A stretch of 61,001 bases of DNA from Flavobacteriaceae bacterium (GTDB taxonomy: Bacteria; Bacteroidota; Bacteroidia; Flavobacteriales; Flavobacteriaceae), in the NCBI GenBank assembly GCA_009693635.1, contig SHWW01000002.1, positions 1 to 61,001 of the forward strand. The letters run 5' to 3'. A program made the translations under genes and the position numbers. Within the stretch, counting starts at the first letter, position 1. The number at the start of each line of letters is the position of its first letter. The notes under the pieces are model-generated. The model saw nothing but the letters and a program-made list of their open reading frames with translations, searched no databases and had not been told where the DNA came from. Positions 34,138-39,326 of the stretch are shown piece after piece.

Positions 34138-35286
34138 TTAATTCACACTAATCTTTTTAGTAATTGTATTGTTATTTGAAGTTAACTTTAAAAAATAAAA
34201 TCCTTCAGGTATATTATCTAAATTATAAGTTTCATTTATTTTAGTTGGATTTTTTATTTCATTTATCAATTGCCCTTTAATAGAAATTAATTGGATATTA
34301 TCAATTGTAGAATTTGTATTGATAGAAATAGATCTATAATTTGTTGGATTTGGGTAAATTAAAATTGAATTTTCTAATAAAAATGAATTATTTCCTAAAA
34401 AACTATTCCAAATGACACCAACATATTCTGGATGATCAATATATGGATTTCTATTAGTTTGATGATTGTAATAAATATCGTTATTAATAGCAATTTCTTT
34501 TAGACTAACCGGGTCGTCTATATGCCATTTTACAAGAATATCTATAAAAGGGTTAATAAATACTCTTCCCGTTGAGCCATCAAACATATTTTTTGCTGGA
34601 CAGCTAGAGGCATTGGCAGTAGTATAAAAATTATTCATATAATCTTCATAACGTGTTGCAAAATATAAAAAAGCTCTCGAAATATCTCCTTTAAATTCAT
34701 CAATAGGTTCAAAAACAGTTCCTGAGTAACCTTGTGCATAACCTGAATTAACACCATTACCTCTTTTTGAACCATTCTGAGAAGTATAGGTGGCAGTTCC
34801 TACTTTTCCAAATGGAAAGTTACTTCTATCACCATTAACTTTTCCATCTGAAGGAACTACAAAAAACGGATCATTTTTCATAGGATCAATTGCATAACTA
34901 TCAAAATAAGATTGAGGAATTAAATGCTCTCTGTTATAACAATCCCCTTCGGCAGAATATGAACCACACTGTTGTGAAGTTGAAGTATAGGCGTAAGGAT
35001 CTGTTCCTGATGGATTTTCAGAATACATATCTAACAAACTGCCGTCATTTTCATAATAATTATCTCTAAAAGCAGAGTGCGTAAATAGAGTCCAAAGCGC
35101 ACCATATCCTTGATCAACATGTAAATGTTCAGAAGGTAAAACATCATTAACATTATCTATAATTTTTTTTAATTGTGTCTTTAAAGTTAAACCGGTTCCG
35201 GTAGCTGTATTATAATACCCTTGAGGTATTTGTGCGAAACTATTTAGACACAATAAAACTGTTAGGAAAGTAAAAAGTTGTTTCAT
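34138..35286 (-). CDS. Secreted endonuclease I family nuclease with T9SS type A sorting domain
   Basis: Signal peptide; CYNREHLIPQSYF, DRSNFPFG; C-terminal ILIYPNPTNYRSISI...GFYFLKLTSNNNTITKKISVN. Confidence 0.9.
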   Translation of the reverse strand: MKQLFTFLTVLLCLNSFAQIPQGYYNTATGTGLTLKTQLKKIIDNVNDVLPSEHLHVDQGYGALWTLFTHSAFRDNYYENDGSLLDMYSENPSGTDPYAYTSTSQQCGSYSAEGDCYNREHLIPQSYFDSYAIDPMKNDPFFVVPSDGKVNGDRSNFPFGKVGTATYTSQNGSKRGNGVNSGYAQGYSGTVFEPIDEFKGDISRAFLYFATRYEDYMNNFYTTANASSCPAKNMFDGSTGRVFINPFIDILVKWHIDDPVSLKEIAINNDIYYNHQTNRNPYIDHPEYVGVIWNSFLGNNSFLLENSILIYPNPTNYRSISINTNSTIDNIQLISIKGQLINEIKNPTKINETYNLDNIPEGFYFLKLTSNNNTITKKISVN

Positions 35287-36762: not shown

Positions 36763-37440
36763 ATGAAAGCACTTTTTATTATATTTTTTCTTCTAAATCC
36801 GCTGATAAATTGTTTTTCACAATCAAGTATTGACGACTATCGAAAATGTGTTTCAGAAAATTATTACATTAATAATTATACAGAGTCTATTTATTATTTG
36901 GGTAAAATTATTGAAATTAATCCGAAAGATTCGAGTGCATATAATGATCGAGGATTTATTAAGGAATTATTAAATGATATTCCTGGAGCTATTGAAGATT
37001 ATACCCTTCAAATTAACATTGATACAACTTTTGCGGATAGTTATTTTTTTAGAGCTATGGCAAAAGGAAAAATTTTGGATTTTAAAGGGGCAATAATTGA
37101 TTATCAAAAAACCATATTATACGAACCAAATAATGCCGACGCTCACTTTTTTATGGGAGTTGCGAAGTTTCAATTGAATGATGTGAATGGTGCAATTTTA
37201 GATTATAATGATGCAATTTCTTTAAATAATAATAAACATGAATTATATTATAATAGGGCACAAGCGTATGAACAATTGAACAATTATAAAGTTGCCTTAG
37301 CCGATTATTCAAAAGCTATAGAAATTGATGCAACTATTGCCGATTATTTCTTAAAACGGAGCCAATTAAAAATGAAAATGCACAAAAAGAAAAGCGCTAA
37401 ACTGGATTTTGATACTTACAAAACTTTCCCAAAATCTTAA
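36763..37440 (+). CDS. Secreted TPR repeat protein
   Basis: Signal peptide; repeated DxxxAIxDYxxAI motifs. Confidence 0.82.
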   Translation: MKALFIIFFLLNPLINCFSQSSIDDYRKCVSENYYINNYTESIYYLGKIIEINPKDSSAYNDRGFIKELLNDIPGAIEDYTLQINIDTTFADSYFFRAMAKGKILDFKGAIIDYQKTILYEPNNADAHFFMGVAKFQLNDVNGAILDYNDAISLNNNKHELYYNRAQAYEQLNNYKVALADYSKAIEIDATIADYFLKRSQLKMKMHKKKSAKLDFDTYKTFPKS

Positions 37441-37446
37441 CTTCTT

Positions 37447-38454
37447 ATGAAAAATAATCTGATTCTTACTTTTTTTTGCTTGTTTTTTTCGTATCCAATT
37501 TTTTCGCAAGAGGAACCCATTCGAATTGCTGGAAATACACAAGGAACCACCTATCATATAACGTATTTTGATAAAAAAAACCGCAATTTTCAACCCAAAA
37601 TAGAAAAATTATTACACCAATTTGATTTGTCGGTTTCTACTTATATTCCAAATTCTATTATTTCTAGAATAAATTCCAACCAAAAAAATGTCAAAGTCGA
37701 TAAATACTTTACAACTTGTTTTAATAAAGCCAAAGAAGTTTGGAAAAACACCGATGGCGCCTTTGATCCAACGGTTTATTCGCTAGTTAATGCTTGGGGC
37801 TTTGGACCAGGAAAAAAGCAAACGATAGAAAAAGTCAAAATTGACAGTTTGTTAGAATTTGTTGGTTTTGAATTAATCGAATTAAAAGGAAACAAAATTT
37901 TCAAAAAAGACCCGCGAGTGGCGCTCGATTTTAATGCTTTCGCACAAGGATATTCGGTTGATGTGATTTCAGAGTTCTTAAATTCAAAAGGAATTACGAC
38001 TTACATTGTTGAAATTGGTGGCGAAGTTTATGCTAATGGTAGAAAACCAAATGGCGATAATTGGAAAGTGGGAATTGAGAAACCAATTGACAATAAGGAA
38101 TCGACTAATCCATTGAAAGCCATTGCAAAACTAGAAAATTTAGCCATTGCCACTTCTGGAAATTACCGAAGATATACAATTGAAAATGGAAAAAAATTCG
38201 CCCATCACATCGACCCGAAAACGGGATATCCGACCAAAAATAATTTATTAAGTGCTTCCATTTTTTCAAAACAATGCATTAGTTCGGATGCAAATGCGAC
38301 GGGTGTTTTGGTGTTAGGATTAGAAAAGGCGAAAATATTTTTGGAAGCGCATCACGAATTGCAAGCCTATTTAATTTATTCGGATGAAAACGGAGCATAT
38401 CAAATTTATGAAACCTTAGGGATAAAAGACATTATTTCAGAAGTGGAAGAATAA
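37447..38454 (+). CDS. apbE: FAD:protein FMN transferase
   Basis: Signal peptide; GTTYHITY, DGAFDPTVYSLVNAWGFGP, ALDFNAFAQGYSVDVI, HHIDPKTGYP. Confidence 0.93.
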   Translation: MKNNLILTFFCLFFSYPIFSQEEPIRIAGNTQGTTYHITYFDKKNRNFQPKIEKLLHQFDLSVSTYIPNSIISRINSNQKNVKVDKYFTTCFNKAKEVWKNTDGAFDPTVYSLVNAWGFGPGKKQTIEKVKIDSLLEFVGFELIELKGNKIFKKDPRVALDFNAFAQGYSVDVISEFLNSKGITTYIVEIGGEVYANGRKPNGDNWKVGIEKPIDNKESTNPLKAIAKLENLAIATSGNYRRYTIENGKKFAHHIDPKTGYPTKNNLLSASIFSKQCISSDANATGVLVLGLEKAKIFLEAHHELQAYLIYSDENGAYQIYETLGIKDIISEVEE

Positions 38455-38501
38455 AAAAAGCACCTTAAAAGAAGCGCTTTGGTTTTGTATAAAAAGTATT
38501 A

Positions 38502-39326
38502 TTATTTGTTTAATATCAATTTGTAGTTTGATGTTCCAAATGCATTTGAAACATTTACAAAATAAATTCCATTTGCAAAGTCAGTTAAATTAATACTTTT
38601 TGTAGTTCCAATTGCTGAAGCCGAAATATTTTCATTATAAATTATTTTTCCAAGAATATTAATTACTTTAATATTTTTTACTTCATTTTTCAAGTCGATA
38701 TTGAAAACCCCATTCGTTGGATTCGGATAAATCGTTATTTGAGGATTTTCTGAAAAATTTTCTACAGCAAGTGCCGTTGGCATCCATACAAGTGAAATTG
38801 CTGTAAAATTCGTATCAGCCGTTGGTGACTGATTGTCTGCAGCAACGCCTTTTATAAAAGGAAAATACCTTGTAGCAGTATTCAGACCATGGCCCCAAGT
38901 TTCTTGAACACAAACTCTAAAGTTTCCATCGGCAAGAGTAAATCCACCTTCATTTGTTCCGTTCCAATTGATAGATCTAGTCGTAAAAATGGTTGAAGTA
39001 GCACCTGATGTGGCATCTACAACGCTTCCTTGCGATTTATTAGCCCAAGTAGGTAAATGATCTCCAGTGTTGCTATTACTTCCGCCCCAATTGATTAATT
39101 TTGTTTTTACGAAGGAAGAAGTTCCCACTGTTGTACCACTTCCACAAGTCGCACAACTCTCAATCCAAATTGCAACTACATACCTTCCATCAGATACATA
39201 ATTTCCTGTAGTATGGTTTGGCATGGTTAATGAAAAAGTTAACGTACCAGCAGTTTGAGCATTTGTTTCAGTAATTGCTAATAAAAGCAAAAGCAAATTT
39301 AAGAATTTCAATAATTTGATTTTCAT
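38502..39326 (-). CDS. DUF2271-like secreted protein with T9SS type A sorting domain
   Basis: YVVAIWIESC, FVKTKLINWGG, LPTWANKSQGSVVDATSGAT, FRVCVQETWGHG; C-terminal ITIYPNPTNGVFNIDL...GIYFVNVSNAFGTSNYKLILNK. Confidence 0.78.
   Translation of the reverse strand: MKIKLLKFLNLLLLLLAITETNAQTAGTLTFSLTMPNHTTGNYVSDGRYVVAIWIESCATCGSGTTVGTSSFVKTKLINWGGSNSNTGDHLPTWANKSQGSVVDATSGATSTIFTTRSINWNGTNEGGFTLADGNFRVCVQETWGHGLNTATRYFPFIKGVAADNQSPTADTNFTAISLVWMPTALAVENFSENPQITIYPNPTNGVFNIDLKNEVKNIKVINILGKIIYNENISASAIGTTKSINLTDFANGIYFVNVSNAFGTSNYKLILNK

Follow-up and report, generated by a model that had tools for sequence, protein, structure and literature searches.

A T9SS-sorted DUF2271-like protein paired with ApbE as the proposed flavin carrier of an envelope redox module in Bacteroidota

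Results

Gene content of the locus

The window analysed here is a 61,001 nt stretch of contig SHWW01000002.1 of a Flavobacteriaceae bacterium (assembly GCA_009693635.1). Within it, a TPR gene and apbE lie on the forward strand and converge with a gene for a secreted DUF2271-like protein that carries a type IX secretion system (T9SS) sorting domain (Table 1). The initial annotation had described this gene order, with gaps of 6 nt between the TPR gene and apbE and of 47 bp between the convergent genes, and the ORF coordinates bear out both the spacing and the overall observation. The position of the TPR gene 5′ of apbE is kept in relatives (loci L032, L033, L034, L036, L044, L108, L109, L110, L118, L120, L121 and L122). 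Near the pair, at 34138-35286 on the minus strand, is a gene assigned by eye to an Endonuclease-I-like secreted nuclease with a T9SS-type tail (IYPNPT...).

Table 1. Features of the apbE/DUF2271-like locus, in window coordinates
Feature	Coordinates	Strand	Basis or remark
TPR gene, signal peptide	36763..37440	+	TPR family matches; directly upstream of apbE
apbE, secreted FAD:protein FMN transferase	37447..38454	+	PF02424, E 2e-80
Intergenic region, 47 bp, separating the convergent stop codons of apbE and the DUF2271-like gene	38455..38501	.	
DUF2271-like protein, T9SS-sorted, 274 aa, proposed ApbE substrate	38502..39326	-	
Sec-type signal peptide of the DUF2271-like protein, ~residues 1-24 (MKIKLLKFLNLLLLLLAITETNAQ)	39255..39326	-	by eye; N-terminal helix 3-18 in the model
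DUF2271-like N-terminal domain, residues 26-182	38781..39251	-	profile A1
Flavinylation-type motif DATSGATST	38991..39017	-	predicted FMN acceptor Thr110, codon 38997-38999
T9SS type A C-terminal sorting domain, residues 199-271	38514..38732	-	PF18962, TIGR04183; PDB 8glk_D / 8qb1_A / 7pq4 matches

ApbE and its probable substrate

Covalent flavinylation by ApbE is known from membranes, the periplasm and Gram-positive surfaces. The enzyme encoded in the window scores 270.6 bits against PF02424 (cut-off 25.6), which makes it a member by profile, and apbE gives a single match in the window's genome (G000, 79% complete). Its active-site blocks (DFNAFAQGYSVD, GGE, ATSGNYR, H.IDP.TG and SSDA.AT) are nearly invariant among 44 homologs adjoining the secreted protein. 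The FMN_bind domain (PF04205) has no match in the window protein or in its genome, so that an ApbE serving NqrC was rejected for this genome. FMN_bind is likewise absent from 29 of the 30 genomes of the genus that carry the secreted protein (hereafter carriers); ApbE must have some other substrate in those carriers, and the DUF2271-like protein is the likeliest one.

The NQR-type apbE forms a separate, well-supported clade. By eye, the apbE loci of the genus (L046-L075) fall into at least three types according to their neighbours: NQR-linked, thioredoxin/DUF3570-like-linked and DUF2271-T9SS. DUF3570 is also an ApbE substrate common in Bacteroidota that has its own apbE, and it is to such a system that the second type corresponds; the systems differ in substrate family, in the apbE that serves them and in the lack of a T9SS domain on the DUF3570 side.

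Linkage of the two genes among relatives

Of 300 genomes of the genus, 30 encode a homolog of the secreted protein, and homologs are found in other Bacteroidota as well; named strains with a homolog include Flavobacterium silvisoli, F. aquatile, F. alvei and Kaistella gelatinilytica. Among the 60 scoreable distinct homologs from Bacteroidota, 48 have an apbE gene no more than 2 kb away, usually convergent and at a distance of about 50 bp, in a set that came from pattern-seeded scans, over-represents one genus and counts loci of differing length. The enzyme-substrate pairing that the initial annotation had put forward is well supported by this linkage together with the exact motif described below, the absence of FMN_bind from nearly all carriers and the published chemistry of DUF2271 (PMC8238504).

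Gene order is conserved and the genomes come mostly from one genus, as would be expected if the neighbourhood were inherited synteny with no function for the secreted protein. We regard this as very improbable, however, given that the outer flanks of the pair differ among relatives (Kup, purA, SRP, aldehyde dehydrogenase and ArgS sides), that linkage extends to Kaistella, Chitinophaga and further bins of Bacteroidota, and that the carrier state is sparse and repeatedly changing.

One metagenome-assembled genome (CANGIF01) encodes five DUF2271-T9SS copies on separate contigs (L131, L156, L162, L163 and L173), with apbE in none of the stretches examined; SGAT is lost in four of the copies and DATSGAT is kept in L131. 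These copies are possibly a paralog expansion without flavinylation.

The flavinylation motif and its conservation

Residues 104-110 of the secreted protein read DATSGAT, an exact match to the ApbE consensus D-x-x-[ST]-G-A-[ST], in which FMN is attached to the last residue (PMC12052999); the acceptor expected from this rule is therefore Thr110. The initial annotation had placed the motif correctly and on the correct strand; the threonine to be expected is the one that ends SGAT rather than Thr112. We consider attachment of FMN to Thr110 likely. A degenerate DNA pattern of the motif occurs once in the window (expected 0.00), and among three DNA matches to D-x-x-[ST]-G-A-[ST] in the 1.8-Mb genome (79% complete) that of the window alone is in frame and correct. 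As for other DxxSGAT proteins in the genome, the match on contig C40 reads DKTTGAR and that on C81 has no such motif in an open frame; both were discarded, and no recurrent second motif-bearing protein was found inside the operon. The core chemistry is already known and thus not new: DUF2271 is flavinylated by ApbE, and a Thr-to-Ala change at the site abolishes modification (PMC8238504).

In our alignment of homologs (A3) the motif columns are conserved (D 23/27, G 27/27, A 24/27, T 27/27), with rows picked mainly from motif-bearing homologs and lower conservation in the full set. Among the 48 apbE-adjacent homologs, [ST]GA[ST] is present in 37 and in register in 35 (L032 and L155 being out of register), and the strict motif including Asp in 22. 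About 13 of the 48 have no in-register [ST]GA[ST], yet their ApbE active sites are intact, and at the site several Flavobacterium lineages read SGGT, TGTT or TGST, or show no recognisable motif. Lack of conservation beside apbE was one of two outcomes that the initial annotation had named as refuting its reading, and that outcome is seen in part: conservation is good (about 35 of 48) but not universal. Nor is the motif retained only beside apbE, as it is kept in 9 of 12 homologs with no adjacent apbE and shows no association with adjacency (Fisher p = 1 for [ST]GA[ST]; 0.11, in the opposite direction, for the strict form). In mutational work summarised in PMC12052999, Asp-to-Ala at an ApbE site reportedly had a minor effect and Ala-to-Val left about half of the activity, so some of the motif variants may still be modified; the remaining variants are probably unmodified.

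Relationship to DUF2271

The initial annotation had called the secreted protein DUF2271-like, and homology to that family holds, although the window protein itself stays below the Pfam gathering cut-off of PF10029 (18.7 against 27.3 bits). PF10029 matches 19 of 27 relatives at E <= 0.01 (best 8.8e-11). Profile A1, built from close homologs of the window protein, finds the DUF2271 part of ApbE-DUF2271 fusions (E 3e-9 to 3e-6) and, at E 2.9e-12, a DUF2271 lipoprotein, which points to common ancestry. The hhalign match to classic Flavobacterium DUF2271 is weak (E 0.1), though SGAT aligns in register with TGAT. On these sequence comparisons the protein is a diverged, T9SS-sorted branch, which we file as DUF2271-like rather than as a member of the family.

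The classic PepSY-like DUF2271 systems (PF10029; PMC8238504) share with the present branch the homologous domain, the [S/T]GA[S/T] site, linkage to apbE and a proposed extracytosolic redox role. They differ in that their members are short, reside in the periplasm and have PepSY and DUF4198 as partners. The present branch has a T9SS sorting domain and no PepSY, and the genes linked to it encode YceI, a CxxCH lipoprotein, DUF5777 and an OB-fold protein; neither PepSY nor DUF4198 was found among the cluster genes scanned or visible in the neighbourhoods examined, in a scan that was non-exhaustive. The single-chain fusions (RUL87804.1 type; L183, L184, L185 and L187) likewise pair the enzyme with the substrate domain, but on one chain, with no T9SS domain and often with SSATR or TSATR at the site. 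These four come from other families of the phylum and read SSATR, TSATR or AGATR there. In a further architecture, long proteins of ~500-1070 aa begin with the DUF2271-like domain (L142:6911-10120, L157:6929-9472 and L174:6875-8455), with PKD/Ig repeats and a T9SS tail recognised by Pfam in L142 and L157 and by eye in L174.

An AlphaFold2 model of the window protein has a pLDDT of 85.9. In structure searches its N-terminal half gave no distinctive fold match, only unspecific Ig-like ones; sequence searches of the PDB returned no credible relative with a classic DUF2271 profile and chiefly FlgD with profile A1. The resemblance to the FlgD Ig domain, together with the two homologs that are long PKD/Ig proteins, the loss of the motif in about 13 apbE-adjacent homologs with conserved ApbE active sites and its retention in most homologs away from apbE, would suit a reading in which the SGAT loop is merely part of the structure of a DUF2271 fold of the Ig/FlgD type, the T9SS surface protein stays unmodified and ApbE serves some other substrate. 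We think this unlikely: the genome has no other in-frame DxxSGAT and no FMN_bind, flavinylation of DUF2271 is published (PMC8238504), the linkage to apbE is stable while the flanks change, and the partner operon described below encodes redox proteins.

T9SS sorting and location

The C-terminal sorting domain reported in the initial annotation is borne out by profiles and by fold. Both PF18962 (E 5.6e-14) and TIGR04183 (E 3.8e-10) match above cut-off, and the modelled domain resembles the C-terminal domain of NucA in complex with GldL (PDB 8glk_D, target TM 0.82) and the T9SS cargo domains 8qb1_A and 7pq4. The domain is present in 26 of 27 homologs, and further sorting-domain proteins are encoded in the window's genome. 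Sequence and model thus support the T9SS export that had been proposed, and with good confidence we would place the secreted protein at the cell surface.

The periplasm is where classic DUF2271 proteins, which are linked with PepSY and ApbE, are located (PMC8238504), and where the partner cytochrome and YceI would be expected. The protein might by the same token be flavinylated but periplasmic, or cell-associated there, and its sorting domain might do no more than retain it or anchor it at the surface. The near-universal presence of the sorting domain, its occurrence in all ten replacement DOMON proteins analysed (see below) and the absence of any PepSY gene from the loci examined argue against this, and we judge it improbable.

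A proposed envelope redox module

Next to the gene for the secreted protein, most relatives have a series of four genes on one strand. They encode YceI (PF04264), a small lipoprotein with a CxxCH motif, an outer-membrane barrel of the DUF5777 family (PF19089) and an OB-fold protein with a membrane anchor (PF12869). The window's genome has the whole series, with a CTSCH lipoprotein, on another contig (C17) and not beside the apbE pair; the initial annotation had missed these remaining module genes. The DUF5777 operon is present in 27 of 30 carrier and 52 of 270 non-carrier genomes (Fisher p 1e-14, a value that overstates independence because the genomes are related), with presence scored by DUF5777 at 426 bits or more and genomes tallied by hand from tables. 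What is new here is the assignment, by gene linkage, of the secreted protein to this envelope redox module (OB-fold, DUF5777, CxxCH lipoprotein and YceI). No paper naming DUF5777 was found in the literature searched.

Proposed exchange of flavin for heme

Counting operon loci only, a gene for a protein with DOMON and T9SS domains lies beside the operon in 36 of 51 loci from genomes without the flavoprotein, as against 1 of 28 carrier loci (p 2e-9). Pfam found the sorting domain in all of ten such proteins and DOMON in nine. All 37 DOMON proteins share an invariant Met66 and contain a His in the C-terminal part of the domain; Met/His ligation of heme is expected in cytochrome-type DOMON domains. 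The sole locus with both the DOMON and the DUF2271 protein is L118, whose DUF2271 motif is lost. To fit the DUF5777 tree, the carrier label has to change 13 times, and supported branches force at least 6 of these changes. No DOMON remnant was found in the operon of the window's genome, which has a shortened ankyrin gene where close relatives carry ankyrin and DOMON. The pattern suggests that flavin and heme domains at the surface have been swapped repeatedly, and the extracellular redox module envisaged in the initial annotation gains support from both the linked operon and this replacement.

Flavinylated and cytochrome domains are known to interchange in respiratory systems (PMC8238504). As in the modular flavin/cytochrome substitution of fumarate reductases and alcohol oxidase (Meheust 2021), flavinylated and heme domains here replace each other in otherwise equal systems; the difference is that the alternatives are separate T9SS-sorted proteins (DUF2271 and DOMON) tied to one envelope operon, an arrangement not described in the literature searched. 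In that literature we found no paper that describes a T9SS-exported flavinylated protein or links DOMON to the T9SS in the present sense; ApbE and type IX secretion came up together in a single incidental paper.

Discussion

On balance we favour the reading that the secreted protein is a DUF2271-type flavoprotein to which the neighbouring ApbE adds FMN, and which the T9SS exports as the outermost carrier of an envelope redox module. The protein would cross the inner membrane via Sec, and periplasmic ApbE would then join FMN to Thr110, as motif, linkage and published DUF2271 chemistry suggest. The C-terminal domain, which is recognisable in sequence and model, would route the flavoprotein to the cell surface via the type IX system. 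There it would act as the outermost redox carrier, with the OB-fold protein, the DUF5777 barrel, the CxxCH lipoprotein cytochrome and YceI as the other parts; in genomes without the flavoprotein, the T9SS-sorted DOMON protein with its heme-type Met and His would usually substitute. Electrons might pass from the quinone pool through YceI and the cytochrome to the surface flavin or heme, although for the step from YceI and cytochrome to surface flavin our confidence falls somewhat short of even. More tentative still is the wider proposal of a Bacteroidota outer-membrane electron-exit module (YceI, CxxCH lipoprotein, DUF5777 and OB-fold) with interchangeable T9SS cargo, either ApbE-flavinylated DUF2271 or heme-binding DOMON, swapped many times in one genus.

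If this is correct, T9SS cargo would include redox cofactors, beyond enzymes and adhesins, and the flavin and heme versions of a Bacteroidota surface electron-transfer arm would be directly comparable. The swap would amount to a natural experiment on the preference of lineages for flavin or heme, for example under iron limitation.

The purpose of the module is perhaps reductive metal acquisition, which is the weakest step of the scheme. Of the 51 non-carrier operons, 21 have a FecR gene nearby, 22 a TonB-receptor gene and 15 an ECF gene, as against 3-4 of the 28 carrier operons, and these neighbours hint at metal acquisition; metal reduction as the purpose is nevertheless doubtful in our estimation.

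Secreted Rieske [2Fe-2S] proteins adjoin the operon in 9 of the 51 non-carrier loci (L271:3608-4027, L276:5880-6302 and similar), and MtrC-like CxxCH proteins lie beside other operons (L037, L038, L115, L273 and L316). By position, both would be further alternative redox partners.
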